From: Shimia sp. R9_2
GTDB lineage: Bacteria > Pseudomonadota > Alphaproteobacteria > Rhodobacterales > Rhodobacteraceae
NCBI RefSeq assembly: GCF_017743735.1
Contig: NZ_JAGHRO010000002.1
Coordinates: forward strand, 744,001 to 808,000
DNA length: 64,000 bases
Reading direction: 5' to 3'
Shown: piece by piece, positions 20,829-47,363 of the stretch
How the letters are laid out: the number at the start of each line of letters is the position of its first letter
Position numbering within the stretch: the stretch's first letter is position 1
The notes under the pieces: model-generated
The model's database searches: none
What the model saw: only the letters and a program-made list of their open reading frames with translations
Told to the model about the DNA's origin: nothing
Made by a program: the position numbers and the translations under genes

Positions 20829-20980
20829 AGTTCAGATTTTCAAATCCGTTAAATCTCGCCGCAACACACAGCCCACTTTGAACACTGCAAAAACTTTCAA
20901 GGCGTGACTGCGCGTTTCTCTTCAAAAGCAGCACATGGGTCGACCACCCGGTGCCAAGCAACCACCTCATGGAGGGTAAA

Positions 20981-22198: not shown

Positions 22199-22215
22199 TC
22201 TGAAAGGATAGACCC

Positions 22216-22992: not shown

Positions 22993-23634
22993 TTAAAACG
23001 CGCCGGTGTTTTGAAATTCGATATCCGCGCGCAGGCGCTGGCTTTGCACCAAACGCGCGTTTGTCAGGTCGTTTTCCTCTGCGCGCTGCACTGCCTGCTC
23101 TTGTGACAGCCCGTGGGTCAACCACCGCTCCACCAGACGCCGACGCAGCTCTTCCTCTGGCACCGACAGAAAAACCGACACATCCCAAATGTCTGACAGC
23201 GCCCGCCAGACCGGCGCGTCAAACAGCAGGTAATTGCCTTCAACCACCACCGTATCGCACTGCGCCGACACCGCGCCGCCACCGGGTATGGTCACATCGC
23301 GGGCGCGGTCAAAGGTTGGATAGGCCAGAACCCCGCCTTGAGACAGCTGTCCAGCCAAGGCCACAAACCCTTCGGAATCAAAGGTATTTGGCGCGCCTTT
23401 TCGCGCCAGAAGCCCCAGATCCACGAGGTCCTGATTGTCCATGTGAAACCCGTCCATCGGCACAACCTGCGCCGCTGATCCGGTGTCACTCAACCGCGCA
23501 GCAATCTCTTCTGCCAGCGTTGATTTCCCGCTCGCCGGAGCACCGGCCACCGCCACAACCCTGCGCGCACCTTTGCGTGGCGCGGCCGCTATGGCCGCAA
23601 CCAGCGCATCCAGATCCTGCATCACGCGGCTCAC
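22993..23634 (-). CDS. frcK: FrcK-like P-loop kinase
   Basis: A 213-residue P-loop kinase of the uridine kinase/pantothenate kinase fold: Walker A AGAPASGKST at about 30-39, VPMDGFHMDN, and VVVEGNYLLFD. It overlaps the frcA end by 4 bases. In Sinorhizobium meliloti a kinase of this class (FrcK) is encoded with the FrcBCA sugar importer. Phosphorylation of the imported sugar is the expected role, though the superfamily also holds nucleoside kinases. Confidence 0.8.
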   Translation of the reverse strand: MSRVMQDLDALVAAIAAAPRKGARRVVAVAGAPASGKSTLAEEIAARLSDTGSAAQVVPMDGFHMDNQDLVDLGLLARKGAPNTFDSEGFVALAGQLSQGGVLAYPTFDRARDVTIPGGGAVSAQCDTVVVEGNYLLFDAPVWRALSDIWDVSVFLSVPEEELRRRLVERWLTHGLSQEQAVQRAEENDLTNARLVQSQRLRADIEFQNTGAF

Positions 23635-24401
23635 GCCGCCTCCGACGGCGCAGCCTTCGCCCCCGTCATAAAGGCCACCGCATCGGACATGGTGTAATCC
23701 TTTGGATCAATCACACAGAGCCGCTTGCCCAGACGGTGCACATGGATGCGATCAGCCACCTCAAACACATGCGGCATGTTGTGGCTGATCAGGATGATCG
23801 GAATGCCCCGCGCCTTCACATCCTGGATCAACTCCAGCACTTTCCGGCTCTCTTTCACGCCCAGCGCCGCAGTGGGCTCATCCAGAATGATCACCTTGGA
23901 GCCAAAAGCCGCCGCACGCGCCACGGCCACGCCTTGCCGCTGACCGCCGGAGAGGGTTTCCACCGCTTGATTGATGTTCTGAATGGTCATCAGCCCCAAC
24001 TCGCTCAGCTTGTCGCGGGCAAATTTCTCCATGGCAGGACGGTCGAGCTGGCGCATCCATTTGCCGCGAAAACCGGGTTTGCGCAGTTCTCGCCCCATGA
24101 ACATATTGTCGGCAATCGACAGCGCAGGCGACATCGCAAGGGTTTGATAAACCGTCTCAATCCCCGCCTCCCGCGCCTCAATGGGGGAGGTAAAACGCAC
24201 CTCCTTGCCCTCCAGCGTCACCGTGCCCTCATCGGGGATCACCGCACCGGAGACCGCCTTGATCAGCGAGCTTTTCCCAGCGCCATTGTCGCCAATCACC
24301 GCCAAAATCTCGCCCGGCATCAGGTCGAAGTCACAATGATCCAGCGCCGTCACACGGCCATAGCGCTTGACCAGCCCGCGGCCTTTCAAAATCGGTTCCA
24401 T
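23631..24401 (-). CDS. frcA: Sugar ABC transporter ATP-binding protein, FrcA-like
   Basis: A 256-residue ATPase with a single nucleotide-binding domain: Walker A GDNGAGKSSL, Q-loop TVYQTLAM, signature LSGGQRQGVAVARA, Walker B VIILDEPTAALG and the switch histidine ISHNMPHV. Most ribose/xylose-type importers have a double ATPase; the single form matches FrcA. It overlaps frcC by one base and frcK by four. Confidence 0.88.
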   Translation of the reverse strand: MEPILKGRGLVKRYGRVTALDHCDFDLMPGEILAVIGDNGAGKSSLIKAVSGAVIPDEGTVTLEGKEVRFTSPIEAREAGIETVYQTLAMSPALSIADNMFMGRELRKPGFRGKWMRQLDRPAMEKFARDKLSELGLMTIQNINQAVETLSGGQRQGVAVARAAAFGSKVIILDEPTAALGVKESRKVLELIQDVKARGIPIILISHNMPHVFEVADRIHVHRLGKRLCVIDPKDYTMSDAVAFMTGAKAAPSEAA

Positions 24402-25462
24402 TATGCCGCCACCTTTCTAATCCACTGATCCACGGCCACCGCGCCGATGATGAGCGCGCCGATGAGCAGGAAGGTCCATTGCGCATCTGCGCCGGCCAGC
24501 CGCAGCCCCAGTGTGAAAACCCCCACAATCAATGCGCCAAAGAATGTGCCCAGAATGGAGCCGCGCCCGCCAAAGAGCGAGATGCCCCCGATCACCACCG
24601 CGGTGATGCTCTCGATGTTCAGAAGTTGCCCCGATGTTGGCGAGACAGAACCAATCCGCCCGATCAGCGCCCAGCCTGCAAAGGCGCAGATCAGCCCGGC
24701 CAGTGCATAGACTGAGATCAGCACGCCCTTCACATTCACGCCCGACAGCTCCGCCGCTTCAGGGTCATCGCCCACCGCATAGACATGTCTGCCCCATGCC
24801 GTGTGTTTCAGCACATAGGCCAGCACGACAACCAGAAGCACCATGAAGACCACACCCAGCGTAAATACTGCGCCGCCCAGTTTGAATTTCGCCCCCAAGA
24901 GCTGCAACAAAGGCGCCTCTGCGGCGATGTCCTGTGATCGGATGGTCTCATTGGCCGAATAGAGGAAATTCGCCGCCAGAACGATCTGCCACATGCCCAA
25001 TGTGACGATAAACGGTGGCAGCTTCATACGCGCCACAAGCCAGCCATTGAGCGCACCAATCGCGGTGCCAAAAGCCAGCCCGAAGGCCACCGCCACCGCA
25101 GGCGGCAAGCCATAGCGAAAGGTGAATTGCCCCATCACCACGGAGGAGATCACCGCAATGGCCCCGACACTCAAATCGATGCCTGCGGTCAGGATCACAA
25201 GGCTTTGCGCCGCCGCCACAATGCCGACGATCTGCACCTGTTGCAAAATCAAGGTGAGCGCGAAGGGTGAGAAAAACCGGCTGCCCAGCAGCAGGCCAAA
25301 AATCACCACCGCACCGATCAGTACAATCAGCGGCACCAGCGCGGGCGTGGTGTGCAAAGCGTGGTGAAACCGCCCGACAATCCCCTTTTTGCCCTCGTCA
25401 AAATGAGCAACTTCGGACGCTGAATCTGTCACCACAGCCTCATAATTCTCCGACTGAGACAT
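24401..25462 (-). CDS. frcC: Sugar ABC transporter permease, FrcC-like
   Basis: A 353-residue inner-membrane permease of the RbsC/FrcC family with about 9-10 hydrophobic helices. Family segments include ILTAGIDLSVGAI, ALNGWLVARMKLPPFIVTLG, AVGDDPEAAELSGVNV and VIGGISLFGGRGSILGT. It probably forms a homodimeric channel with FrcA. It is separated from frcB by 92 bases containing a hairpin. Confidence 0.9.
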   Translation of the reverse strand: MSQSENYEAVVTDSASEVAHFDEGKKGIVGRFHHALHTTPALVPLIVLIGAVVIFGLLLGSRFFSPFALTLILQQVQIVGIVAAAQSLVILTAGIDLSVGAIAVISSVVMGQFTFRYGLPPAVAVAFGLAFGTAIGALNGWLVARMKLPPFIVTLGMWQIVLAANFLYSANETIRSQDIAAEAPLLQLLGAKFKLGGAVFTLGVVFMVLLVVVLAYVLKHTAWGRHVYAVGDDPEAAELSGVNVKGVLISVYALAGLICAFAGWALIGRIGSVSPTSGQLLNIESITAVVIGGISLFGGRGSILGTFFGALIVGVFTLGLRLAGADAQWTFLLIGALIIGAVAVDQWIRKVAA

Positions 25463-25501
25463 GTGAGCCCTCCCCCGGCATTCTGTCTGAGCTTGTGCAA
25501 A

Positions 25502-25523
25502 AGGGTGAGGCTGCCCCCACCCT
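25502..25523 (-). terminator. frcB-frcC intergenic hairpin
   Basis: Minus strand reads AGGGTG - GGGGCAGCCT - CACCCT, then TTTTGC. Such partial terminators or 3' stabilisers are common between the binding-protein gene and the permease gene and would allow more binding protein than transporter. Confidence 0.45.
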
Positions 25524-25554
25524 CTCGCGTCAGGTTAACACGACTTGGCCGCGA

Positions 25555-26565
25555 TCAGCCCCAGCAAAGCTCGGTGCCTTTGGCGGTGTCGATGCTGTCC
25601 ACGCCATCAACCGGCTGATCGGTGACAAGCGACACGCCAGTGTCAAAGAACTCCTTGCCGTCAGAGGCCTGCGGCTTGGTGCCGTCTTTGGCCCAGGCTG
25701 CAATCGCCTCAATGCCTTTGGACGCCATCAACAGCGGATACTGCTGCGATGTCGCGCCAATGACACCGTCCTTGACGTTGTCCACACCAGGACAGCCGCC
25801 ATCCACAGACACTATCAGCACGTCATTTTCACGGCCAATCGCCTTCAACGCTTCATAGGCACCCGCAGCGGCAGGCTCATTGATGGTGTAGACCACGTTG
25901 ATCATCGGATCTTTGGCCAGCAGGTTCTCCATGGCGCGGCGGCCACCTTCCTCGTTGCCAGCGGTGATGTCATTGCCCACGATGCGTGGATCGGTCTCAT
26001 CGCCCCATTTGCCGGGGTCGCCCAGCTCAATGCCAAAGCCTTTCAGGAAGCCCTGATCGCGCAGAACACCCACAGTGGGCTGGCTCACCGCCAGATCAAG
26101 CATCGCAATCTTTGCGTTGGCCGCCTCGTCGCCCAACGCCGCTGCCGCCCATTTCCCAATCAGCTCTCCAGCCAGGAAGTTGTCGGTGGCAAAGGTCATA
26201 TCCGCAGAGTCAATCGGCTCCAGCGGGGTGTCGAGTGCAATCACCAAAAGGCCCGCATCCCGCGCCTGCTGCACCGCTGGCACAATCGAGCTGGTGTCAG
26301 AGGCGGTCAGCAAAATACCTTTCGCGCCATTGGCAATGCAGGTCTCAATCGCCGCCACCTGAGTTTCGTGGTCACCATCCACCTTACCGGCATAGCTGTT
26401 GAGCGTGATGCCCAGCTCTTCGGCCTTTGCCGTCGCGCCTTCGCGCATCTTCACAAAGAACGGATTGGTGTCTGTTTTGGTGATCAGGCACGCGCTCACA
26501 TCCGCCGCCGCACTGACCGTCATTCCGGCCAAAACAAGGGCCGATGTCGCAAGTAGCTTTTTCAT
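25555..26565 (-). CDS. frcB: Sugar ABC transporter substrate-binding protein, FrcB-like
   Basis: A 336-residue periplasmic binding protein of the ribose/fructose type. It has a signal peptide ([21 protein letters not shown]) and type I fold segments [43 protein letters not shown] and [26 protein letters not shown]. The frame is open far upstream, but ATG at 26565 has GGGAGGA before it and gives a clean leader. By analogy with S. meliloti FrcB it may bind fructose, ribose and mannose; specificity is not readable here. Confidence 0.9.
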
Positions 26566-26683
26566 AATGTCCTCCCAAGGTTCGCAATATTTGGATCTGG
26601 CTCCCTCCAGCTCCAGGCCTGCCTCTAATTCGTGACGCAGGATGCCCCCATAGGTAACGGCGATTCCCCAAGAGCTGTCAATA

Positions 26684-26700
26684 AATAAATTAACTTTATT
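26684..26700. promoter_or_regulatory. AT-rich inverted repeat between frcB and frcR
   Basis: AATAAA-N5-TTTATT lies in an AT-rich patch (26680-26707) centred between the divergent frcB and frcR starts. It is the natural candidate operator for the ROK repressor FrcR; ROK operators are often of the TTTATT type. Confidence 0.5.
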
Positions 26701-26745
26701 AAATAATCGAAGCGCCCTATCTTCCAAAGCTGGGAGGAGCCTTTT

Positions 26746-27954
26746 ATGGTCAGCCATATGGATGGCGGAAAAATCAGAGCACTCAGCGGCGGCGTGAATC
26801 AACGGCGCGTCCGCAACCACAATGAACGCCTTCTGATGTCCATCCTGCAGCGGCAGGGCGCCCTGCCCGGCATCGACCTGGCAAAACGCATGGGGCTGAC
26901 GCCACCGGCGATCTCCACCATGTTGCGCAAGCTGGAAAGCGATGGCCTGCTTCAGCGCGGCGAACCCACGCGCGGCAAGGTGGGCAAGCCCTCCATTCCC
27001 ATGCACCTCAACCCCGACGGGGTCCTGGCGCTGGGATTGAAGATCGGCCGCCGGACTGCGGATCTCTTACTGCTCAATTTCGCGGGCAATGTGCGCGCCT
27101 CAGAGCACACCACCTACGACTACCCGCTGCCCGCAGATGTCTTCTCATTCCTTCATGACAGTCTTGAGACATTGCTCGCCGGCCTCAGCGCCGAGGAGGT
27201 CGCGCGCATTTGCGGGATCGGCGTCGCCGCCCCTTTTGAGCTCTGGCGATGGAGCGATCTGGCAGGCCCCGCCGCAGAGCAGTTCAAGCTCTGGAAAGAC
27301 ATTGATTTTGCTCAAGAGGTGGCCCGCTTCAGCGACCTGCCCATCTTTGTTGGCAATGACGCCACCGCAGCTTGCCGCGCCGAGCATCTCTATGGCCGTG
27401 GCAAAGAGTTCCGCGACTATGCCTATTTCTTTGTCGGCTCCTTTGTTGGCGGTGGCATCGTCATGAATGACAGTGTGTTTGAGGGCAATCAGGGCAACGC
27501 GGGCGCGCTTGGCTCCATGCGCGCCACAGGCCCTATGGGCGAAAGCCGCCAGCTCATTGATGTGGCCTCCATCCACCTGCTGGAAACGCGGCTGATCGAG
27601 GCCGGTCTCAACCCCGACATGCTCTGGAGCCAGCCACAAGATTGGTCAGTGCTCAGCCGCTATGTCGATCCGTGGCTGGGTCAGACCGCGCAGGAGCTCG
27701 CCAAGGCCGCACTGTCGGTCTGCTCCGTGGTCGATTTTGAGGCCATTCTGATCGACGGTGCCTTTCCCGCCGATGTCCGCCAAGAGCTGGTGGAGCGGGT
27801 CCGGCGCTATCTGGTCAATCAGGACACACGCGGCCTGATCGTGCCGCGCATCGAAGAGGCTGTGGTGGGTCAGGACGCGCGTGAAATTGGTGCCGCCAGC
27901 GGCCCGATCTTCTCGCAGTTCTTCCTCAACACGCACGCCGGATTGTCCCGCTGA
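26746..27954 (+). CDS. frcR: ROK-family transcriptional repressor, FrcR-like
   Basis: A 402-residue regulator. Residues 25-80 form a winged helix ([37 protein letters not shown]). The rest is the ROK fold, with a kinase-like nucleotide motif region and [16 protein letters not shown] and [22 protein letters not shown]. The usual ROK zinc cluster CxCGxxGC is absent, as in many FrcR/XylR-like regulators. It is divergent from frcB, so it probably controls the frcBCAK operon in response to sugar. Confidence 0.86.
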
Positions 27955-28095: not shown

Positions 28096-29532
28096 GTGAG
28101 AGTGCCCGTGCAAATCCGCCATGAAAACCCCAGCGCCCAGCTCAGCTGGAAGGTGCACGCCCCGCTGTTTTTGGAAACGCCAGACGGCGACCAAATCCGC
28201 ATTGAGGCGTGGTCGCTTGCTGGCTTTGACTGGCCCGAGGACGCAGGATCGTGCCCGCAATCCGGCACCCTCAGCGTGCCTTTTCAGGGGGTCGATGTCC
28301 GCTTTGACGTGCGCCTGACCGCACCGGATGCCGACGGCACAGTGGCCTTTGAAGGCCTCAGCGGGCGACAGCGCGAAACGCTGGCGCTGTTTTACCGCTC
28401 CATCCTGTCCGGTCGCATGGCCAGCAGCGAAGACGTGATCATGAGCCTTGATACGCCCGTTGATCTCGTGCCCATGGAAGAGACCGAAGAAGAGAAAACC
28501 ACCAACCAGCAATCCAGGATGCCCGGCTCTGTGCGTGCGGTGATCCATGTGGTGATCTACCTGCTGCTTGCAGGCCTTATCGCCACCGTGCTTGGCTCTG
28601 CCCTCTTCAACGGCCTCACCCGCATCAACATCCAGCACGGCCGCGTCGTCGCGCCCATCGCCGAAGACCTCCCCGCCAGTGAAGGCTTTGTGAAATCCAT
28701 CCACGTGGTCCCCGGCCAACGGGTTGAGGCAGGCGAGGTCATGGTGCGCCTGCGCGATCCGGCAGCGCAGGCAGAGCTGTCCCAGACCCGCGCCCGCCTG
28801 AGCCTTGCAGAGAAAGAGCTCGACCGCGTCATTGAAGCCCGCGCCATGCTGGAGGCCTTGGACGAAACACAGCCCCTTCAGGTGCGGGGCGCGCTCGCAG
28901 CTCAGATCTATGCACAGTTCATCGGAGATCGCGGTTTCGACGCCCTCTGGAAGCGTTGGCTCGATATTCAAACGCATGATCCCGAAGCGGCCACAGCCTT
29001 TGACCCTTTTGCCTTTGCGCTGGACAAACTCATAGAGCTGGAATTTGAACACAACGCCAAAGTGCGCCGCCTGCGCGCCACCCGCGACGCCAACAAATCG
29101 GCGATCTCCATGAGCCACGTGCGCGCGCCTTCAGATGGGGTGGTGCACGAGGTTCTGGTGCGCAAGGGGCAACCCTACCGCCACGACGATCTCGCGGTTG
29201 TCTTTGAGTCTGACACACCTCGCGTGGCCATGGGCTGGGTCTCTGAGCGGTATTCCGAGGCCATCTTCATCGGGATGGAGGCGCATATCGGCGTCAACAG
29301 CCTTGGCCAGAAAACCACCATCGCCGGCACTGTCACCGATGTGCGGGCGGGCGCCGATCCCCGCCGCCCCGGCGAATTTGGCATCATTGTCACCGTCACA
29401 CCCCAAGACATCACTCCGGCTCAGACCAAATCCCTGCTACGTCGCGACGCGCCGGTCAATATCCAGACCCGCCGCGCGGTTGGCCAGCGCATGATTGCCC
29501 GCATTCAATCCCTGGTGAGCCGCGATGAGTGA
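28096..29532 (+). CDS. Alg44-like membrane-fusion protein with degenerate PilZ-like region
   Basis: A 478-residue protein. Residues 1-130 resemble a PilZ domain, but the RxxxR and (D/N)xSxxG motifs are degenerate (IEAWSLAGF is the nearest). One membrane helix follows at about 150-172 (VIHVVIYLLLAGLIATVLGSAL), then a periplasmic HlyD/biotinyl-lipoyl-like part with VVAPIAEDLPASEGFVKSI, a coiled coil and a second lipoyl half (VRAPSDGVVHEVLVRKG). The order PilZ-TM-HlyD is that of alginate co-polymerase Alg44. The GTG start is uncertain (another GTG 12 bases downstream). It overlaps the next gene by 8 bases. Confidence 0.75.
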   Translation: MRVPVQIRHENPSAQLSWKVHAPLFLETPDGDQIRIEAWSLAGFDWPEDAGSCPQSGTLSVPFQGVDVRFDVRLTAPDADGTVAFEGLSGRQRETLALFYRSILSGRMASSEDVIMSLDTPVDLVPMEETEEEKTTNQQSRMPGSVRAVIHVVIYLLLAGLIATVLGSALFNGLTRINIQHGRVVAPIAEDLPASEGFVKSIHVVPGQRVEAGEVMVRLRDPAAQAELSQTRARLSLAEKELDRVIEARAMLEALDETQPLQVRGALAAQIYAQFIGDRGFDALWKRWLDIQTHDPEAATAFDPFAFALDKLIELEFEHNAKVRRLRATRDANKSAISMSHVRAPSDGVVHEVLVRKGQPYRHDDLAVVFESDTPRVAMGWVSERYSEAIFIGMEAHIGVNSLGQKTTIAGTVTDVRAGADPRRPGEFGIIVTVTPQDITPAQTKSLLRRDAPVNIQTRRAVGQRMIARIQSLVSRDE

Positions 29533-31108
29533 GTTGTCCGAGTTCGCCTTTGACAAGGATCTGACCCTCAAGCTGCGCGATCTGCAGACCCCGATCAAAC
29601 CCTATTGGGCGCGCTGGACATTGCCCAACGTGCTGGCGCTCATGGCGGTGATCGCAGCGCTGCTCTGGTTGCTGGTGAATGTCCCCAACCGCTTTGTCGA
29701 TCCCAACGCTTTGCACATCACCGTGATCCTCGGCGCTTTGGGATTGTGGCGCTTTGGCTGGTGGTTCACCCATTCGGTGCGCGCCATGATCTATGCCCGC
29801 CTGAAGTGGCCCCAGATACGCGCCAGCGCCGATGCGCTCTGGCAGGAAGGCTGGCGCCCCAAGCGCCTGCACATCCAGATGACCACCTACTACGAGGAAC
29901 CCTCGATCACCAAACGGGTGATCGGCTCCATTCTTGGCCAGATCAAACGCGAGCGCATTCCCACCACGCTCTATATCGGCACCGGCAGCGCCTATGATGA
30001 AAACATCATTCGCCAATTCGTGGACACCTATGCCCAGGACATTCCCGATGATCTGGCGGAACTGGTGTTTATCCGGCAAAACCAACCGGGCAAGCGCATG
30101 GCGATCGGGCTGATCCTGCGCGCCATTTCACGGGCCGGTGCGGACCCCGATGATATGGTCATCTTTATGGATGGGGACGCGCTTTACGGGCAGGATGTGC
30201 TCAAGAAAACCCTTTCAATGTTTGCCTATGATCCGGAGCTTCAGGCGCTTACCACCGATGAAGAGGTGATCTGCTACGGCCCTACATGGATCGCCAAATG
30301 GCTCGACATGCGTTTTGCCCAGCGCCGCCTCGCCATGCAGAGCCACGCCCTATCCAACCGTGTGCTCACCCTCACCGGCCGGATGAGCGTCTTTCGCGCG
30401 CGCCACATCGTCGATCCCAAGTTCATCCGCACCATTGAGGCCGACCACCTCAATCACTGGCTCTGGGGGCGCTTCCGCTTCCTGTCAGGGGATGACAAAT
30501 CCACCTGGTACCGGCTGCTGAGCGTGGGTGCCAAGATGACCTATGTGCCGGACGCCACGGTCTACACCATCGAAGTCATCAAAGAAAACGGCCTGCTGAG
30601 GATGGTGCAAAACTTCCGCCGCTGGTCTGGCAATATGCTGCGCAACGGCAGCCGCGCCATAGCGCTTGGCCCGCGCCGGATGCCGTTCTTCATCTGGTGG
30701 TGTGTGGTCGATCAGCGCATCGCCATGTGGACCATGATGGTGAGCCCTTTCATGGCCGTGCTCGGCAGCATCGTGGCCCCCGGCTACATATGGAACTGCC
30801 TGATCTGGGTGATCTTCTCCCGCGTCGTGCTCTGCATGTTCCTGTTTGGCTACAGCCGCCGCGCCGACATGACCTGGCCGTTCATTCTCTACCTCAACCA
30901 GGTCATCAACGCGTCGGTCAAAATCTACATGATCTTCCATCTCTCCAAGCAGAAATGGTCCAACCGGGGCAATCAAAGCGCAGGCGATGGCGATGGTCTT
31001 CTGGAGCAGCTGCGCAACGGCTTTGCCAAGTTCCAGCTGGTCACAGCGGTCACAGGCTTCCTGACATTGCTGATGATATACGTCGGACTGATCGAGCTGC
31101 CGTTTTGA
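29525..31108 (+). CDS. Alg8-like family 2 processive glycosyltransferase
   Basis: A 527-residue membrane glycosyltransferase: two N-terminal helices (about 35-75), a cytoplasmic GT-A domain and at least three C-terminal helices. Catalytic motifs: DGD at 216-218, GDD at 322-324, and a Q..RRW-like gate QNFRRW at 362-367. This matches processive GT2 synthases (cellulose, hyaluronan, mannuronan). With an AlgD-like enzyme downstream, GDP-mannuronate is the likely donor, but another nucleotide sugar cannot be excluded. Translationally coupled to the Alg44-like gene. Confidence 0.8.
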   Translation: MSELSEFAFDKDLTLKLRDLQTPIKPYWARWTLPNVLALMAVIAALLWLLVNVPNRFVDPNALHITVILGALGLWRFGWWFTHSVRAMIYARLKWPQIRASADALWQEGWRPKRLHIQMTTYYEEPSITKRVIGSILGQIKRERIPTTLYIGTGSAYDENIIRQFVDTYAQDIPDDLAELVFIRQNQPGKRMAIGLILRAISRAGADPDDMVIFMDGDALYGQDVLKKTLSMFAYDPELQALTTDEEVICYGPTWIAKWLDMRFAQRRLAMQSHALSNRVLTLTGRMSVFRARHIVDPKFIRTIEADHLNHWLWGRFRFLSGDDKSTWYRLLSVGAKMTYVPDATVYTIEVIKENGLLRMVQNFRRWSGNMLRNGSRAIALGPRRMPFFIWWCVVDQRIAMWTMMVSPFMAVLGSIVAPGYIWNCLIWVIFSRVVLCMFLFGYSRRADMTWPFILYLNQVINASVKIYMIFHLSKQKWSNRGNQSAGDGDGLLEQLRNGFAKFQLVTAVTGFLTLLMIYVGLIELPF

Positions 31109-31377
31109 GGCGCGCCCTATCCTTTCGCGCAAACCCGCCTGACCAGCCCCTGCCCTAAGATAGGTACCACAACGTGGGTTGTGGCAACGCCGACCCCAAT
31201 ACAGCCCACGCGGCAAACCTGCATGTCCCCTCATGCAGGCTTTGTCGTTTTCAGGGGTATTTTTCATTTTTATCAAAAGGATAACCTCGTGACCCAAAGC
31301 CATCCCCACCTGATCTAACGCCAGCAAAACGACTGCGGGCTTCCTCCTAAGCTCAATTCAAACAGGAGGACGTATTT
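31109..31377 (+). other. 269-base gap between glycosyltransferase and algD-like genes
   Basis: No gene seen. It holds an inverted repeat CCACAA-CGTGGG-TTGTGG at 31167-31184, a hairpin at 31218-31239 and, at the end, ACAGGAGG just before the algD-like start. It probably contains a second promoter for the algD-RTX pair. Confidence 0.5.
31218..31239 (+). terminator. Hairpin after the glycosyltransferase gene
   Basis: Perfect 8-bp stem CCTGCATG / CATGCAGG with a 6-base loop, followed by CTTTGTCGTTTT. Likely terminator of the two-gene transcript, which would separate synthase and dehydrogenase expression. Confidence 0.6.
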
Positions 31378-32772
31378 ATGGAATTCCGCGATTTTTCAAA
31401 CCAACCAGCTGAGCTTGTCACCCCCATCCCAAGCGAGAAGGCAAGCATCAGCATCGTAGGCCTCGGCTATGTCGGCGCGGTATCCACCGCCTGCCTCGCA
31501 GCACTTGGTCACCGTGTGATCGGCGTCGATCTTGATCTTGGCAAAGTGGCGCAAATCGGCCGTGGCAAAAGCCCGATCCATGAGGCGGATCTGAGCGAAA
31601 CCCTCACACAGGGCGTCAAGGATGGGCTGATCTCTGCAACCGACGATCTCACCGCCGCTGTGCGCGAGACGGATGTGACCTTTGTCTCCGTTGGCACGCC
31701 AACCGCTGCCGATGGTGGCTGTGACGACACCTACATCCGGGCCGCCTCCCGCGCGATGGCCGAAGGGCTGCGCGACAAAGAAGGGTTTCACGTCTTCGCC
31801 ATGCGCTGCTCGATCCCGCCGGGCACCACCATGTCTGTGATGACCCCCATTCTGGAAGAGGTCTCCGGCAAAGTAGCGGGCCGCGATTTCGGCATCTGCT
31901 TCAATCCGGAATTCCTGCGCGAAGGCGTGGCAATCTCTGATTTCCATCACCCGCCCAAAACCGTGATCGGCACCACCGATTTTGCCACCGCGGAAATCAT
32001 GCGCCGGATCTATGCGCCGGTGGATGACAATCCGATCCTCACCACCATCGAAGTGGCGGAAACGATCAAATATGTCGATAACGTCTGGCACGCCACCAAG
32101 GTCTGCTTTGCCAATGAGGTCGGCCGTCTGTGCAAACCCCTTGGTGTCGACAGCCACGCCGTGATGGACATCTTCACTCAGGACCAGAAACTCAACCTGT
32201 CCTCCTACTACCTCAAACCCGGCTTTGCCTACGGCGGCTCCTGCCTGCCCAAAGAGGTGCGCGCGGTACAATATGTGGCACAAAAACACGGCGTGTCGCT
32301 GCCCATGATCGGCAATCTGGAAAGCTCCAACGCCGAACAGATCAACCGCGCAGTCGAAATGGCCTTGGCCACAGGTGCCCGGCGCGTCGGCGTCCTCGGT
32401 CTTGCGTTTAAGCCGGGCACCGACGATCTGCGCGAAAGCCCGATCCTTGAAGCCATGGCCACTTTGCAAGGCCAAGGCGTAGAGCTGCTGGCCCATGACG
32501 CCGCCGTCACCAAAGACACCCCGCTGGAAGGTCTCGCAAGCTACACCAAACATGGCAGCCAGGGTCTGGCGACCCTCTCGGCACAGCTCAAAGACATGCT
32601 GTGTGTCGACATCGACCACCTGATGCGTTCGGTGGATGCCGTGATCGTCTGCCACGCCAGCGACACCTATCGCGAGGCCGTCACCCGCCACCAGGATATC
32701 GAGGTGATCGACGTGGTGCGCCTCTTTGACACCGCTCCCCGCAACATCGCCGTAAACGGCATCGGCTGGTAA
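31378..32772 (+). CDS. AlgD-like GDP-mannose 6-dehydrogenase
   Basis: A 464-residue nucleotide-sugar dehydrogenase: Rossmann motif SIVGLGYVGAVSTACLAALGH, ICFNPEFLREG, the catalytic-cysteine motif PGFAYGGSCLPKEVRA, and GLAFKPGTDDLRESP. The stretch around the cysteine (LKPGFAYGGSCLPKEVRAVQY) is closer, from memory, to Pseudomonas AlgD than to UDP-glucose dehydrogenases. An N-terminal extension of about 25 residues precedes the fold. It would oxidise GDP-mannose to GDP-mannuronate for the neighbouring synthase. Confidence 0.82.
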   Translation: MEFRDFSNQPAELVTPIPSEKASISIVGLGYVGAVSTACLAALGHRVIGVDLDLGKVAQIGRGKSPIHEADLSETLTQGVKDGLISATDDLTAAVRETDVTFVSVGTPTAADGGCDDTYIRAASRAMAEGLRDKEGFHVFAMRCSIPPGTTMSVMTPILEEVSGKVAGRDFGICFNPEFLREGVAISDFHHPPKTVIGTTDFATAEIMRRIYAPVDDNPILTTIEVAETIKYVDNVWHATKVCFANEVGRLCKPLGVDSHAVMDIFTQDQKLNLSSYYLKPGFAYGGSCLPKEVRAVQYVAQKHGVSLPMIGNLESSNAEQINRAVEMALATGARRVGVLGLAFKPGTDDLRESPILEAMATLQGQGVELLAHDAAVTKDTPLEGLASYTKHGSQGLATLSAQLKDMLCVDIDHLMRSVDAVIVCHASDTYREAVTRHQDIEVIDVVRLFDTAPRNIAVNGIGW

Positions 32773-32808
32773 GCCCGCACGCCTCCGAGAAACAGGAAAG
32801 GAACGGCT

Positions 32809-35421
32809 ATGCCTGATCCAACAGAAAACACACTCATCGGGACAATTCTGTCCGACGCCTTTGATGGCACACAAGCCAGCGACCTCATGGTCGGGCTGGA
32901 CGGGGATGACACGCTCACCGGCTCTGCTGGAAACGATGTCATCCACGGCGATCACGCTCAGGAAAACCTGCTGTCTGGCACCTCTGGCGCCTCCGGCTTT
33001 CAGGATTATGCCAACAGCGGCAACTGGACCATCACCGACCTGGACGGTGGCCACCAATCCATGAGCCAAAGCCTCTCGCTGGCAGAAAACGGCGTCTATC
33101 GCCTGAGCTTCGATCTCGCGGCCAACTTCTCCGCCGGTCTGACCAACGCCTCAATCGAAGTGCTGGTCGACGGCGTGGTGGTCGGCGACTTCTCTTCAGA
33201 AAGCGGGGCCTTCTCCACTTTCGAGACCACCTTTACGGCGCAAAGCAATGCGCCTGAAATTACCATCCGCTCGGTTCAGGGCGAAGGCCAAGGCCCGGTC
33301 ATCGACACCTCAGGCCCTGCTTTCCACTATGACAAAGAGATGGAGACCGGCGGGCAGACTGTGACAGTCGCGGCCTTTGCGGATGGCCAATCCAATCTCT
33401 ATCAGGTGCTCAACGGCACGCTGCACGTCTTTGACGTGGAAACCCAAAGCTATGAGATCGCAGGCGCCGCAGGCACGGTCAATGTGAACTCCATGGGCTA
33501 CAACGCCGAAGACGATCTGCTCTATGCGATTGCCGTCAGCAACGGTGTCGACAGCCTTGGCAATGCGGTTCAGCGCTCTGATCTGATCATGCTCGATGCC
33601 GAAGGCCACAGCTACCGGATCGGTGAAACACCTTACCGCTCCTGGACTGGGGATTTTGATGATCAAGGCAATCTCTGGTCTTTTGAATCCAGCATAGACC
33701 GCATCGCGGTAATCGACGTCGATACGTTTGATGAAAACGGCAATCCCGAGGTCACCGTGCACCACCTCCCCCGCTCTCTGGTGCAGCATCGCGTCTATGA
33801 TGTGGCTTACGATGCCGGCAGCCAGAAATTCTACGGCGTTGCCCGCCCACCGGGGGAAGGTCACGACACCATCCTTCTGGTCGTGGACATCTCTTCAGGT
33901 GAGCCCACCTTCTCCACCGTTCCGGTCACATCAACCGTGGTGGATGGGCAGACCCTCGCTGGCGCACCCGCGATCACCTTTGGTGCTGCGATCGTGGATG
34001 CCGATGGCACGCTCTATGTGGGCGGCAACTCCGGTGATCACGATATGAACAACAGCACCCGCAGCTCAGGCGGCATCTATCAGGTCATCATCGATCCAGA
34101 CACCGGCGAAGCAGCCCTGCATCTGATCACCAATGCGCCACGGTCTTACTCCAACGATGGTGCCGCTGACCCAACCGCAGAAAGCCCCTTTGCCGAGGTG
34201 GATCTCAGCTCCTCCGTGCTCCTGCGCGATCTGGAGCTTGTCGCCACCACCGAGGGCGCGTTGACCTATGATGACCATCTCTCCGGAAATGCGGGGCATG
34301 ACACCATCAACGGCGGCATCGGCACCGACGCCCTTATCGGCGGCAGCGCCGGAGACGCGCTGCACGGTGACGACGGCAACGACTATCTGCACGGCGGGGC
34401 TGGCCCCAACTACGAAAGCAGCATCATATCCGACTACGACGGCGGGCTGCGCTATGACCAGTACGGCAACCTCTTACCGGAGGACGACGACCTGCTGTTA
34501 GGCGGTGCCGGAGACGACACATTGGAAGGCTCCGCAGGCCACGACACGCTGGATGGCGGCGCAAACAATGATGTCTTGAATGGCGGCTCCGGCTCAGACG
34601 CCCTCTATGGCGGCACCGGCGACGATCTGTTGTCGGGCGGCGGCCAAGACGACACGCTGGAGGGCGGCACCGGTGCTGATACCCTCGACGGCGGCTCAGG
34701 CGACGATGCGCTCTCAGGTGGCGCAGGCAGTGATCTGCTGCGCGGCGGGTCAGGCTACGATACCCTCGACGGCGGCGCAGACGCCGACACGCTCGAAGGC
34801 GGCAGCGGCCATGATGCGCTCTCAGGCGGCGCAGCCGATGACAGTCTTGTGGGCGGATCAGGCGATGACACGCTCAACGGCGAGGACGGAGCAGACTCGC
34901 TCCGGGGTGGGTCCGGCGACGACCAGCTTGATGGCGGCGCAGGCAATGACGATCTGCGCGGCGGTGTGAACGACGATGTGCTCACCGGCGGTTTGGGGCG
35001 CGACAGCCTGCGCGGCGACAGCGGCAACGACGTGCTCAGTGGCGGCGAAGATCGCGACTATCTCAGCGGCGCGTCAGGCAATGACACTCTGGACGGCGGC
35101 GCAGGCGGCGACCGGCTATACCTCGGGGCTGGCGCAGACCTCGCCTCCGGCGGCAGCGGCGCTGACCGTTTCATCTTCCGCAGCGATGATCTGGATGGCA
35201 GCACCGACCGCATTCTGGATTACGACACCGATGAGGGCGACCGTCTGGACTTCCGCCGCCTGGAGTTGGGCGCAAGTGACGCGGAACATCTGCAATGGTT
35301 TGCCACGCATGTCACAAGCTCTGGCGATGATCTGCAGATCTCCCTGTCAAACAGCACCACGCTGTTGCTGGACGGCACGGCCGCAGATCTCGGCGATCTC
35401 TATGACACCATCCTGTTCTGA
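32809..35421 (+). CDS. Large RTX calcium-binding secreted protein
   Basis: 870 residues. A short RTX-like start (about 10-50, [20 protein letters not shown]) is followed by a jelly-roll-like part (about 60-155). Next is a beta-propeller-like part (about 170-460, with [21 protein letters not shown] and repeated D-G-N/D-G-T units). A long array of GGxGxDxLx nonapeptides (about 490-790) and a C-terminal cap ending DTILF complete it. There is no Sec signal, so type I secretion is expected; no T1SS gene is in the window. It lacks the DPH motif of AlgE epimerases. It lies 36 bases after the algD-like gene. Confidence 0.8.
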
Positions 35422-35456: not shown

Positions 35457-36071
35457 CTACTCAAAGCCCGCCTCTTTCGCGATCAGCGCCGCCTGTGTGC
35501 GGTTCTTCGCATTCAGCTTTTTGCAAAGGGTACGCACATGCAGCTTGATCGTGACCTCCTGAAGATCCAGATCCCGCGCGATTTCCTTGTTGGAATGCCC
35601 TTTGCAAAGCCCGGTCAGCACTTCTTTTTCACGCTGACTGAACTGCTTGGCAAAAGCGGTTTCCTCGTCCGCTTCGCCCCCCGCCATCACGCTGGGCGGC
35701 ACAAAGCTCTCTCCCGCGATCATGAAGCGCACGGCGTTCACCAACGATTTGGCACCCATGGTTTTGGGCAGAAATCCGATCGCACCCGCATCCAGAGCCT
35801 CTTGCGCCACCTTATTGGGAGCGGTGCCACTGACAATCGCAATGGGCTGTTCCGGGTATTTGGCCAAAGCGTCGGTCAATCCCTGAAGCCCGTTCATGCC
35901 GGGCATGCTGAAATCCAGCAAAACGAGATCAAAGGTCCCTTTCTGCTCCAGCGCCTTCATGGCTTCAAAGTAGTCAGACACCGCAACAACGGCCGCACGC
36001 CCCTCAGAGGTGAGGTAGGCAGAAATGGTTTCCCGAACCATTCCATGATCATCAGCAAGTAAAATTCGCAT
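35457..36071 (-). CDS. NarL/FixJ-type response regulator
   Basis: A 204-residue regulator. The receiver domain 1-120 has the acidic pair ADDH, phospho-acceptor D in LVLLDFSMPG, the conserved S in IVSGT and lysine in LPKTMG. A LuxR-type HTH lies at about 140-200 (LTGLCKGHSNKEIARDLDLQEVTIKLHVRTLCKKL). The frame extends to 36173, but ATG at 36071 gives the exact receiver start. Divergent from the molybdopterin-fold protein/hybrid kinase pair, so that kinase's Hpt domain is its probable donor. Confidence 0.88.
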   Translation of the reverse strand: MRILLADDHGMVRETISAYLTSEGRAAVVAVSDYFEAMKALEQKGTFDLVLLDFSMPGMNGLQGLTDALAKYPEQPIAIVSGTAPNKVAQEALDAGAIGFLPKTMGAKSLVNAVRFMIAGESFVPPSVMAGGEADEETAFAKQFSQREKEVLTGLCKGHSNKEIARDLDLQEVTIKLHVRTLCKKLNAKNRTQAALIAKEAGFE

Positions 36072-36408
36072 CGAAACCGGTCGCCCTATGTGATTGGCCT
36101 GACCCGAGCCTAACTCGCAAGCGGTGCCAGAACCAGAGAGCGCTCCCTTATCCTTATAGAATTCAAATGGCATAGTAATCTTACCTTTCCCCTAATGACC
36201 CAAGGTCAAAAACAACGCAAATTCGATAGGTTTGAGTAAACCCGCATAGATTGCGCCATGGCGAGGCACACTTCCGGTGCGCCCGCGCGGCGAAAGGTAT
36301 GGGCGACTATACGAAAGGTTAGTCGCGTAACCCAATGCGCGTCCCCACCCAAAATCAAGCCGTGGCACAACACTTCTGCGATGTAAGAAATCCACAGGAG
36401 TCGGCCCC
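36072..36408. other. 337-base divergent control region
   Basis: No gene supported. It contains a TGACC-CAA-GGTCA inverted repeat at 36196-36208 that could be an operator. ACAGGAG lies shortly before the start at 36409. Confidence 0.4.
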
Positions 36409-36900
36409 ATGAATATGTTGAAATCCGTTTTGTTCTCTGCCGCCGCTGCAGCCTGCCTTGCCACTTCGGCGGCCAGCGAAACCATCCTTGCGGTTTACGG
36501 CGATGTTGCCACATCCTCTGATGGCGGTGCCTGGAGCTTCAGCGCCGAAGACCTGCGCACCCTGCCCAGTGAAAGCTTTCAGACCGAAACCATCTGGACC
36601 GAAGGCGAACAAACCTTTGTGGGCGTCCCCCTTCACAGCCTTCTGGAACATGTCGGTGCCAGCAACGGCAAATTGATTGCCATTGCTGCCAATGACTATG
36701 CTGTATCGATCCCGACAAGTGACGCGGTGCCCAATGGCCCCATCGTGGCCTATCTGCGCAACGGCGAAGAAATGTCTCTGCGCGACAAAGGGCCACTTTG
36801 GATCGTTTACCCATTCGCAGGCAACGCAGCGTATAAGTCTGAAGAATATTATTCTCGCAGCATATGGCAGCTCAGTCAGATTGAAGTGGTTGCCAATTAA
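36409..36900 (+). CDS. Periplasmic molybdopterin-fold protein without the Mo-ligand cysteine
   Basis: 163 residues: signal peptide (SVLFSAAAAACLATSAAS), then a compact domain like the sulfite-oxidase molybdopterin-binding fold. Key segments are FVGVPLHSLLEHVGA, AANDYAVSIPTSD, GPIVAYLRNGEEMSLRDKGPLWIVYPF and YYSRSIWQLSQIEV. The mature protein has no cysteine, so it lacks the thiolate that ligates molybdenum and is probably not an enzyme. It lies 39 bases before a hybrid kinase gene, suggesting a binding or sensing partner. Confidence 0.75.
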   Translation: MNMLKSVLFSAAAAACLATSAASETILAVYGDVATSSDGGAWSFSAEDLRTLPSESFQTETIWTEGEQTFVGVPLHSLLEHVGASNGKLIAIAANDYAVSIPTSDAVPNGPIVAYLRNGEEMSLRDKGPLWIVYPFAGNAAYKSEEYYSRSIWQLSQIEVVAN

Positions 36901-36939
36901 CCATCTGGGGTAGGCACGATACGCGATCGACACTCTTTG

Positions 36940-39411
36940 ATGCTGGGGCGGTGGCCACTCATAGCGCTTGGCGCGCTTTTGATCGCAAGTCTGATTATCA
37001 TCGGCTTGCTTGGCCGCTCTGTGACCACCGACCTGCGCGTGCTGTCCACCGCGCAGCACGATGACGTCAGCTGGCGTATGTCGCAGCTGGAGGTCGAACT
37101 CCTGCGATTGCAGAATGTCACGCTGGACGCATTGAACGACCCGCGGGCGGAGCTGAATGTCCTGCGTAAACGCTATGACATCTTCTACAGCCGCATCACC
37201 ACCCTGCGGCAAAGCGCGCTGTATCAGTCCTTCAAAGACGAGCCCGAAATTGTCGGCCAGTTGAAGATGGCCACCGACTTTCTGGACAAGACCACCCCCG
37301 CCATCGACGCGGACAATGCGGCCTTACGCGCAGCACTTGATGGCATCTATCAGGACATCACCGCCTTGGCCCCAGCGGTGCGTAGTCTGGCGCACTCCGG
37401 CATCGCTAGCTTCACGGCGCAAGAAACCGCCCGTCGCGAAACCTTTTCTGACACCCTGCGCAGCCTTGCCATTGGCATCGTTGTCCTGATCACCGTGCTG
37501 TTTGGCGCACTTGCCACGCTGATCGGATTGCATCGGCAGGGCAAATCCATTTCCCTGATCAGCGACATCGCCCGCGCCCGCTTTGAGGCGGCCATTTCCT
37601 CTTCCCTTGATGCGGTCTTGGTTGTGGATGCCAAGGGTCACATCATCGAATTTAATGGCGCTGCACAGTCGGTCTTTGGCTATCAACGCGAAGAGGTTCT
37701 TGGGCAGGACATGGTCGACCTGATCGTGCCGCAACACCTGCGCGATGCCCACCGCGAAGGCATGGCCCGTTTCCTGCGCACAGGAGACCGCAAAGTCATC
37801 GACGCGGGCCGTGTTCGCCTGCAGGGCCTGCGCAAATCCGGCGAGGTCTTTCCGGTCGAGCTCTCCATTTCCCTGTCACAAGCGGCGGGGGAAACGGTGT
37901 TTGTCTCCTACCTGCGCGACATCACGGCGGAGCTTGAAGCCGAAGAAGCGCTCAAGGATGCGCTGGAGAAAGCCCAGCTTGGCGAGAAGGCCAAATCAAA
38001 CCTGCTCACCGTGATGAGCCACGAAATGCGCACCCCGCTCAATGGCATCCTCGGCTCGCTTGACCTGATTGACCAAACGTCGCTCAGCGACCGCCAGAAA
38101 CAGCATCTCAACGCCATCGCCGTCTCCGGCGATCTGCTGCTGTCACATGTCAACGACGTGCTCGACTTCTCCAAGCTAACCTCAGACGCGGATTTCGACG
38201 AAAGCGCCACCTTTGATCTGAGCGCCCTGATCACCGAAGTCACAGACAGTCTTCAACCGGGTGCAAAGGCGCAGAACAACACGCTTTCGGTCTCGTTCCA
38301 GTCCGAGGACCTTGGCTATGTGCGCGGCGCTCCGCGCTCACTTCAGCGCTGTCTGGTCAATCTGATCGGCAATGCCAATAAGTTCACCCAAAATGGCGTC
38401 GTCAACGTTGAGGTCGAACGGCTCTCAGGCGGCGACGTCGAAATCCGTGTTGCCGACACAGGCGTGGGCATCGCCCCTGAAAACCTCGAACGGATTTTTG
38501 AAGAGTTTGTCACCATCGACACCGCTTTTGCCCGCACCAACTCCGGCACCGGCCTGGGATTGGCGATCACAAAACGTCTGATCACCCAGATGGGCGGGGA
38601 CATCGACGCGGACAGCCTCTTGGGCGAAGGCAGCCTCTTTGTCCTGCGCCTGCCGCTTCCCGTTGCCGATGCACAAACCGCACCGCAAAGCGCCTCCGCC
38701 CCTTCAATGCTCACAAGCCTACCGCGCGCCATTCACGCTCTGGTCTGTGACGACAACCAGATCAACCGCAACATCTTGTCCGCAATCCTTGAAGAGCTTG
38801 GGGCCACCGTCACCTCTGTCTCCAACGGGTTTGATGCCATAGCCGAGGTCGAGGCGCGGGAGTTTGACGTTCTGATGCTCGACATCAGCATGCCGGAAAT
38901 CGACGGCATCGAGACCCTGCGCAGAATTCGCGAAAATTCAGAGGACGGACTGCCGCTCCCGGCAATCGCCGTGACCGCACACGCGGCACCCGCGGATCAC
39001 AAAAAGATCCTCGCCGCCGGTTTTCACAACCTGCTGGTCAAGCCCGTCTCCCGCGCCGCAGTGCATCAATGCCTCGCGGGCGTCTTTGACATGCGGCTGA
39101 CCGATCAGCCCACCGACGCGCCTGCTGAGCCGGAAAACGAATATCTCGCCCGCTTTGGCCCCGAACGCTTTGCCAAGGCGCTTGCGGAAATGAACGCAGA
39201 TCTGTCGCAACTCATAGCAACCCTCGAACATAAATCGCACCTGACCGAAGCGGACCGCGACGCCGCGCATAAGCTCTCTGGTTCCGCCGCTGTGTTGGGA
39301 CAAACCGACATGTGGGACACGCTGCAAACCCTGCAGCATTGCCCAGATACGGACTGGCAAGCAGACAAACCGCTTCTGCTCGCCACGCTCAATGCACTGC
39401 TCGGAACATAA
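36940..39411 (+). CDS. Hybrid sensor histidine kinase with receiver and Hpt domains
   Basis: About 823 residues. Transmembrane helix 1 at about 5-27, a helical periplasmic part to about 170, helix 2 about 178-200, PAS about 215-325, H-box MSHEMRTPLNG, ATPase domain with NLIGNANKFTQNG, DTGVGIAPE and GTGLGLAITK. Then come a receiver domain (phospho-Asp in VLMLDISMPE) and a C-terminal Hpt with AHKLSGSAAVLG. A phosphorelay His-Asp-His is thus built in, needing an external receiver; the NarL-type regulator at 35457 is the nearest. TTG at 36937 is an alternative start. Confidence 0.9.
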   Translation: MLGRWPLIALGALLIASLIIIGLLGRSVTTDLRVLSTAQHDDVSWRMSQLEVELLRLQNVTLDALNDPRAELNVLRKRYDIFYSRITTLRQSALYQSFKDEPEIVGQLKMATDFLDKTTPAIDADNAALRAALDGIYQDITALAPAVRSLAHSGIASFTAQETARRETFSDTLRSLAIGIVVLITVLFGALATLIGLHRQGKSISLISDIARARFEAAISSSLDAVLVVDAKGHIIEFNGAAQSVFGYQREEVLGQDMVDLIVPQHLRDAHREGMARFLRTGDRKVIDAGRVRLQGLRKSGEVFPVELSISLSQAAGETVFVSYLRDITAELEAEEALKDALEKAQLGEKAKSNLLTVMSHEMRTPLNGILGSLDLIDQTSLSDRQKQHLNAIAVSGDLLLSHVNDVLDFSKLTSDADFDESATFDLSALITEVTDSLQPGAKAQNNTLSVSFQSEDLGYVRGAPRSLQRCLVNLIGNANKFTQNGVVNVEVERLSGGDVEIRVADTGVGIAPENLERIFEEFVTIDTAFARTNSGTGLGLAITKRLITQMGGDIDADSLLGEGSLFVLRLPLPVADAQTAPQSASAPSMLTSLPRAIHALVCDDNQINRNILSAILEELGATVTSVSNGFDAIAEVEAREFDVLMLDISMPEIDGIETLRRIRENSEDGLPLPAIAVTAHAAPADHKKILAAGFHNLLVKPVSRAAVHQCLAGVFDMRLTDQPTDAPAEPENEYLARFGPERFAKALAEMNADLSQLIATLEHKSHLTEADRDAAHKLSGSAAVLGQTDMWDTLQTLQHCPDTDWQADKPLLLATLNALLGT

Positions 39412-47277: not shown

Positions 47278-47326
47278 GTGCTCCATTAGAAAGTCGATCG
47301 TCACGTCAGGAAGCCGTTGTGACGAC
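47278..47326 (-). promoter_or_regulatory. SAM/SAH-type riboswitch before metK
   Basis: The metK leader on the minus strand contains CACAACGGCTTCCTGACGTG followed by GACG..., CTTTCTAATGGAGCA and the ATG. This matches the SAM/SAH riboswitch known from Rhodobacterales metK leaders: a small H-type pseudoknot in which the GGAGCA (ribosome-binding) strand pairs with GGCUUCC-region bases. Ligand binding would hide the ribosome site 4 bases before the start codon. Confidence 0.88.
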
Positions 47327-47363
47327 AAAGTGAGTTCCGCCCTACCCGAGCAAAAATGTCAGG

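Follow-up and report, generated by a model that had tools for sequence, protein, structure and literature searches.

What does a marine bacterium make with an alginate-type synthesis core that stands beside a gene for an RTX protein, and are three enzymes enough to make it? The question is raised by four adjacent genes on the forward strand (positions 28096-35421) of the window, the 64,000-nucleotide stretch of DNA analyzed here, which covers positions 744001-808000 of contig C18 in the 4.47 Mb assembly of Shimia sp. R9_2. By Pfam, they encode a HlyD-type membrane-fusion protein, a family 2 glycosyltransferase (GT2), a UDP-glucose/GDP-mannose dehydrogenase and a protein with RTX repeats in 14 stretches. 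Our analysis suggests that these genes probably form the polymerizing core, plus an extracellular partner protein, of an alginate-type pathway whose genes are divided among several contigs. The original prediction had taken the three enzymes for a complete compact system, which they are not, since AlgA and AlgF-I-J-X are encoded within the cluster in relatives and elsewhere in the window's own genome.

The four genes that the same prediction had seen in a row are intact, as is confirmed by open reading frames (ORFs) at exactly the stated coordinates, by the codon-position G+C content, which in all four genes has the pattern of real genes, and by low dN/dS ratios. Measured against Shimia sp. 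R10_1, whose locus (L050) has the same reduced order, dN/dS is 0.071 for the membrane-fusion gene, 0.014 for the GT2, 0.062 for the dehydrogenase and 0.10 for the RTX gene, which indicates that all four are maintained by selection. The membrane-fusion gene overlaps the GT2 gene by 8 bases. For its start, the GTG at 28096, the uncertainty is at most 12 bases, with further in-frame GTG codons at 28102 and 28108, and homologues in relatives begin closer to 28108 than to 28096.

The GT2 is 34-36% identical over 454-472 residues to the Alg8 proteins of two Pseudomonas-type operons, L171 and L172 (E values of 7e-87 and 2e-90), and has conserved synthase stretches in common with Alg8. We placed it in a tree of 42 rows that included Alg8, a second group from Rhodobacterales and Rhizobium (type B; 31-38% identical to the window GT2), BcsA, a BcsA-like protein, PgaC, NodC and a GT2 from pSymB, which we take to be BgsA by its position only, its record carrying no annotation. 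A branch with support of 100/99 sets the window GT2, Alg8 and type B apart from all the others, several of which have long branches, with long-branch warnings from the tool for the BcsA, PgaC, NodC and pSymB rows. On its own side of this branch, the window's group stands beside, not within, the group formed by Alg8 and type B; support for the window's kind as a whole (type A) is low, at 44/21, whereas the 15-row subset that holds the window has 99/98. Pfam recognizes the GT2 domain and nothing more, the sole NCBIfam match is NodC at 56.7 bits against a cut-off of 550, and the window GT2 alone found no match among PDB sequences. Some members of the family are already named 'glycosyltransferase Alg8' or 'alginate synthesis-related protein' in databases. 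Identity and tree thus support the Alg8-like assignment made earlier, and the placement outside the mannuronan synthases that would have refuted it was not observed.

Sequence relationships place the dehydrogenase with enzymes of the GDP-mannose type, its activity being assigned by family. The best solved relative is the GDP-mannose 6-dehydrogenase of P. aeruginosa (1mfz, 374 bits, against 248.9 bits for the best UDP-glucose enzyme), identity to AlgD is 43.6%, and in a tree the protein groups with AlgD, apart from E. coli Ugd and a Ugd-like gene of its own genome (100/100). A UDP-glucose dehydrogenase was rejected on this bit-score lead and on the tree; the AlgD-like identity proposed earlier is supported, and the grouping with UDP-glucose enzymes named as a refutation did not occur. 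The genome holds three paralogues, of which the window's is the only one of the GDP-mannose type; the third is very long-branched and is left unplaced.

GDP-mannose itself is presumably supplied by an AlgA-type enzyme. In many Rhodobacterales loci such an enzyme, of about 475 residues with nucleotidyltransferase and mannose-6-phosphate isomerase domains, is encoded between the GT2 and the dehydrogenase. All locus counts given here come from one scan of genome contigs for relatives, of whose 182 loci the best 80 were used; 60 of the 80 have full flanks, with no less than 9 kb to either side of the GT2. Of the 45 full-flank loci with a GT2 that shares at least 60% identity with that of the window, 36 have an AlgA-type homologue within about 10 kb of the GT2. 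The window has no such gene, nor do 12 loci (GT2 at least 60% identical, at least 7 kb downstream), L050 included, and an algA remnant in the spacer between the window's GT2 and dehydrogenase genes was dismissed, the best tblastn match there having an E value of 4.4. The window's genome does encode an AlgA-type enzyme, beside GT4 genes on contig C21, which is identical to the cluster AlgA of locus L031 at 236 of 471 positions. In four other loci (L051, L052, L060 and L061) the gene between GT2 and dehydrogenase has shrunk to a short frame; that of L060 has 161 residues and corresponds to the mannose-6-phosphate isomerase part alone.

The membrane-fusion protein has the architecture of Alg44, namely a PilZ-fold domain (residues ~20-104), one membrane helix (144-175) and a membrane-fusion domain of the barrel-sandwich type with a helical hairpin (222-338). 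While blastp gave no link to Alg44, the profile comparison did, and structure comparison identified the PilZ fold as that of Alg44, so that the Alg44-like identity claimed for this protein is upheld. The hairpin is 119 residues long in the model, compared to 25-31 in Pseudomonas-type Alg44. Passages of a study of Alg44 report that its PilZ domain binds cyclic di-GMP (c-di-GMP) via an RxxxR motif, R21 being essential and R17 required for the dimeric messenger, and that mutations that block this binding abolish alginate; they also tie Alg8 residues to c-di-GMP activation, in a numbering that did not match here and on which we make no claim (PMC8461298). At the positions of R17, R21 and D44 the window protein has Q, K and A, and it retains S46 and G49 (motifs RxxxR and DxSxxG). 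These residues could be counted in 73 of the 80 loci (frames of at least 400 residues). Within the window's group (58 loci, GT2 at least 60% identical), R17 is kept in none, R21 in 6, D44 in 2, S46 in 51, G49 in 51 and R95 in 1, whereas in a sister group of 15 loci with GT2 below 60% (Roseibium, Cohaesibacter, Bermanella and others) both R17 and R21 are kept in all 15, D44 in 14 and R95 in none. The Pfam PilZ model likewise matches Pseudomonas Alg44 and the proteins of L095 and L099, and misses those of the window and L031. The window protein has retained the PilZ fold while losing the c-di-GMP arginines, a loss which suggests that the usual c-di-GMP switch is probably gone.

The RTX protein was modeled with AF2 (pLDDT 88.8). 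The model begins with a short RTX-like segment, followed by a jelly-roll-like region (residues ~65-180) that reaches 20.3 bits with DUF642, below the cut-off of 27, a propeller (~190-462) that matches DUF6923 above its Pfam cut-off, a long RTX beta-roll (~490-790) and a carboxy-terminal cap. Neither a catalytic domain nor a beta-helix was recognized by Pfam, in the model or among fold matches. A profile search with the amino-terminal region gave a single match at E 0.21, which we treat as chance, and a weak CBM35 match (E 0.072) was not used. An RTX toxin was rejected, as the protein has no toxin-type amino-terminal domain: Pfam gives RTX repeats, DUF6923 and weak DUF642, and the model a jelly-roll-like region and a propeller.

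An RTX gene lies near the GT2 in 57 of the 60 full-flank loci (the misses are L055, L071 and L081) versus 3 of 60 control stretches, which were drawn from the window's own genome only (contigs C11, C18, C23 and C24; 58 of 20,000 bases, two of 16,000 and 18,500) and are slightly shorter than the ~21.6 kb scanned around each GT2; the loci include relatives and so are not independent. In 45 of the 57 the RTX gene is downstream of the synthase on the same strand, in eight upstream on the same strand, in three downstream on the opposite strand and in one upstream on the opposite strand. The amino-terminal domain varies between groups, being the DUF6923 propeller in some, DUF4114 in others and neither of these elsewhere, so conservation concerns the presence of an RTX protein and not one particular type. 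The proposed tie between RTX gene and synthesis core is borne out by these counts; the absence of co-conservation that had been named as its refutation was not observed.

The remaining alginate genes had been reported as missing, a claim that holds for the window; some of them lie elsewhere in the genome. Pseudomonas-type AlgK, E, G, X, L, I, J, F and A found no match in the window at E 1e-3 (blastp, all frames of at least 60 residues), nor, in the same kind of search, did AlgA, E, F, G, I, J and X of Rhodobacterales. On contig C23 of the same genome, however, AlgF (45.2 bits), an AlgI-type MBOAT protein and two AlgX/J-type proteins are encoded together, the AlgF being 25% and the AlgI 47-51% identical to the Pseudomonas-type forms. 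Among the genus's 25 genomes, 13 have the GT2 and 11 have PF16822, all 11 being inside the 13; were the genomes independent, which is not the case, the chance of such nesting would be 78 in 4,457,400. Among 149 genomes of the family, nine have a GT2 at least 63% identical, and as five of these nine have PF16822, acetylation appears to be usual rather than universal. AlgF, AlgI, AlgJ and AlgX are all encoded in the neighborhood of the GT2 in 13 of the 80 loci, six of which (L067, L070, L073, L075, L077 and L078) have an AlgE-like porin gene directly before algF, four of the six being cut by the locus end; PF13372 scores the L070 porin, the only one of the six scored, at 65.9 bits. In a genome of the same genus (G014), a single contig carries within 19 kb the order 44-8-A-D-RTX, a regulator on the opposite strand, a molybdopterin-fold protein, a kinase and then F-I-J-X. 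The pathway is thus contiguous in some relatives and split in the window's genome.

AlgG and AlgK call for more caution. With three AlgG queries, no AlgG was found in the window or the 80 loci. The Pseudomonas-type query found none in the window's genome either, in a search without a built-in control; it recovers one of two type B AlgG genes of Rhodobacterales (that of L200, not that of L198). Queries from Rhodobacterales, run on the 80 loci, on the window and on stretches of its genome totaling 1.26 Mb, gave no match. The lack of AlgG is therefore firm for the cluster and not for the genome, because the Pseudomonas query missed one of two targets and the better queries covered 1.26 Mb. AlgK had no match in the window or in the same 1.26 Mb, Sel1/TPR proteins being hard to assign; L057 and the Roseibium-type loci carry a Sel1/TPR-type gene.

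These observations can be joined into a route. The AlgA-type enzyme encoded on C21 would provide GDP-mannose, and the window dehydrogenase would, by family, oxidize it to GDP-mannuronate. The Alg8-type GT2 and the Alg44-like protein, if they act as their families do, would polymerize GDP-mannuronate and pass the polymer over the inner membrane, where AlgF-I-J-X of C23 may O-acetylate it, as family and co-occurrence suggest. Because no AlgG was found, in a search that is incomplete, we predict that the polymer is an acetylated polymannuronate containing little guluronate, if any. The conserved kinase and LuxR-type regulator would be the likely control. The long hairpin, as modeled, might conceivably dock on a TolC-type channel instead of AlgK/AlgE, and the RTX protein would be secreted, fold in sea-water calcium and bind or organize the polymer. 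With more doubt than confidence, we suggest that these bacteria may be natural makers of acetylated polymannuronate that lack an epimerase and have shed the c-di-GMP switch, with export independent of AlgK/AlgE in the window's lineage and with a secreted RTX protein that, by means of calcium, would hold the polymer together in place of guluronate blocks. The cluster is a variant of the alginate system and not a strict alginate operon, since searches found neither AlgG within the cluster nor AlgE within the genome, and the c-di-GMP motifs are not preserved. The new points are the worn c-di-GMP site, the epimerase-free cluster and the steady RTX partner; the earlier account had not mentioned the c-di-GMP loss, the long hairpin or the conserved sensor genes.

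Several observations weigh against an alginate-type pathway of this form. PF16822 is absent from two of the 13 genus genomes and four of the nine family genomes that have the GT2, and an AlgE-type porin (PF13372) was found in none of the 25 genus genomes, the window's own included. No such dehydrogenase lies nearby in 9 of the 15 full-flank loci with GT2 below 60%, and among named NCBIfam equivalogs those closest to the dehydrogenase are UDP-glucose enzymes, though at less than half their cut-offs. A kinase related to that of the cluster (34-38% identity) is also found nearby in Roseibium-type loci that retain the PilZ arginines, and the kinase therefore did not simply replace c-di-GMP. Contig C24 of the window's genome encodes a PL5-type alginate lyase, an enzyme for which a bacterium making plain polymannuronate might or might not have a use; we did not count it as AlgL, and its stretch (L197) has a frame weakly matching a TRAP-type DctM protein, a neighbor that hints at catabolism.

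Part of this evidence would also fit a GT2 that uses GDP-mannuronate and yet makes another polymer, with another linkage or a second sugar, in which case 'alginate' would be a misnomer. The position of the window's group beside Alg8 and type B, the identity of only 34-36% to Alg8 and the lack of AlgG, AlgE and AlgK matches in the genome, from partial searches, speak for it. AlgF-I-J-X acetylates mannuronan in known systems; its presence near the GT2 in 13 of the 80 loci, its co-occurrence across the genus and the synthase stretches common with Alg8 make this alternative unlikely. A mixed-linkage glucan (BgsA/BgsB) or cellulose-type synthase, suggested by the adjoining membrane-fusion gene and by NodC as sole NCBIfam match, is disfavored and hardly credible: BcsA, PgaC, NodC and the BcsA-like pSymB GT2 all fall across the 100/99 branch from the window GT2, with the long-branch warnings noted for these rows, and a BgsA/BcsA-type synthase was rejected on this placement.

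The reduced order of the window could also be that of a decaying remnant, given that AlgA is gone without a remnant in the spacer, the acetylation genes are scattered, PF13372 is not found in the genome and the PilZ residues are lost. Such decay is very improbable. The dN/dS ratios of 0.014-0.10 were obtained against L050, of the same reduced arrangement, and on them we discarded a decaying locus; moreover, the PilZ loss is no mark of decay because it is common to loci that still carry AlgA, AlgF-I-J-X and AlgE-like genes. A more serious doubt concerns the RTX protein, which may be an unrelated secreted protein, for example an adhesin, that shares the place and binds no polymer. RTX genes are common, with 19 frames in the window's genome, and their amino-terminal domains differ among groups; the 57 of 60 loci versus 3 of 60 controls, and the four arrangements relative to the synthase, point the other way, although related loci are not independent, and we regard an unrelated protein as somewhat unlikely.

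An alginate-type core with a secreted partner can be set beside several known systems. With the Pseudomonas-type operon (algD-8-44-K-E-G-X-L-I-J-F-A, as in L171) the cluster shares the Alg8/Alg44/AlgD-type core, as well as AlgA and AlgF-I-J-X, which are found in the window's relatives and in trans in its own genome. It differs in that the window holds the core only, with no AlgG, AlgK or AlgL in its cluster, and in its lack of PilZ arginines, its long hairpin and its RTX partner. The type B operons of Rhodobacterales and Rhizobium (L187-L189) have the synthase superfamily, the AlgD-type dehydrogenase and AlgA- and AlgF-type genes in common with it; unlike the window's, their synthases group with Pseudomonas Alg8, they include a beta-helix (AlgG-like) gene and, in the annotated stretch of L188, an alginate lyase gene. 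L188 and L189 are plasmids of Jannaschia and Loktanella with full type B operons, and the family therefore holds two different alginate-type systems; one genome (G120) has synthases of both kinds. Closer are the Roseibium/Labrenzia-type clusters (L091-L105), with a GT2 54-57% identical, a membrane-fusion protein, an RTX protein and an MBOAT acyltransferase, although there the PilZ arginines are retained, the RTX protein contains DUF4114, and SGNH-like, Sel1 and ~650-residue genes are present. The ~650-residue protein is conserved in these clusters behind the MBOAT gene (in L099, at 15943-17898), has no Pfam match and could be a polymer-modifying enzyme.

The Azotobacter AlgE-type mannuronan epimerases are secreted, calcium-dependent enzymes with RTX-type R-modules. 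They resemble the window's protein in their RTX-type repeats and alginate context and, as predicted for it, in secretion and calcium dependence, and differ from its jelly-roll-like region and propeller, in which no beta-helix was recognized. The Rap proteins of Rhizobium leguminosarum (RapA2, RapD) are described in PMC9298526 as type-I-secreted, calcium-binding proteins that bind and influence acidic exopolysaccharide. Theirs are cadherin-like Ra domains and the window's an RTX beta-roll and propeller, so that they offer a precedent of function and not proof, with no kinship shown.

Our literature searches returned no paper that we recognized as treating this cluster. Alginate-type genes outside Pseudomonas are already in print, in general terms, in sections of a 2015 review, which also state that every alginate-producing bacterium encodes AlgG and that a natural mannuronan producer had not yet been identified (PMC4444821); one alphaproteobacterial metagenome-assembled genome with five alginate-type genes is described in part of PMC9238374. 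The cluster points to marine isolates in which the existence of natural mannuronan producers is directly testable. For Alg44 it amounts to a natural experiment in how a synthase operates after the loss of the c-di-GMP arginines, beside a sister group that keeps them. Finally, a secreted calcium-binding protein tied to genes for acidic-polymer synthesis would matter for marine biofilms and aggregates.

Table 1. Features of the cluster and its flank; counts out of 45 refer to full-flank loci whose GT2 shares at least 60% identity with that of the window.
Feature	Position	Strand	Basis
Alg44-like membrane-fusion protein	28096..29532	+	478 aa; intact ORF
Alg8-like GT2, putative mannuronan synthase	29525..31108	+	527 aa; 34-36% identity to Alg8; tree
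Spacer; AlgA-type gene here in many relatives; terminator-like stem-loop 31218-31239	31109..31377	.	tblastn, stem-loop
AlgD-like GDP-mannose 6-dehydrogenase	31378..32772	+	464 aa; best structure match 1mfz, AlgD identity, tree
RTX protein	32809..35421	+	870 aa; Pfam HemolysinCabind and DUF6923, AF2 model, fold matches, co-conservation
LuxR-type response regulator, cluster-conserved	35457..36173	-	Pfam; near in 38/45 loci
Small protein with molybdopterin-binding fold, preceding kinase	36409..36900	+	Pfam Oxidored_molyb; near in 30/45 loci
Hybrid histidine kinase, cluster-conserved	36937..39411	+	Pfam; homologue near in 37/45 loci

The membrane-fusion gene immediately precedes the GT2 in all 80 loci, and the three genes beyond the RTX gene are also frequent companions of the synthase (Table 1); the small protein among them matches Oxidored_molyb with 29.3 bits (cut-off 24). 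The stem-loop ahead of the dehydrogenase is of the terminator type, and the dehydrogenase and RTX genes may therefore form a transcription unit of their own; perfect stems of at least seven pairs occur at this position in 30 of 47 loci, a count without a shuffled control.

Further along the window, positions 39644-42298 encode a second sensor kinase with solute-binding-protein domains, followed by a receiver-domain gene. Just upstream of the cluster (22993-27954) lie sugar-type ABC transporter genes, a kinase-like gene and a gene for a ROK-family regulator, a neighborhood seen, among the 80 loci, in L050 only. The frame of the binding protein (25555-27006) overlaps the ROK gene (26746-27954), and the protein therefore probably begins later. 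These are preceded by a multicopper oxidase-type gene and an FGE-sulfatase-domain gene (20951-22983), an arrangement also found in copper nitrite reductase clusters. On the reverse strand, positions 47279-47328 match the SAM/SAH riboswitch aptamer (RF01727) with 59.8 bits.

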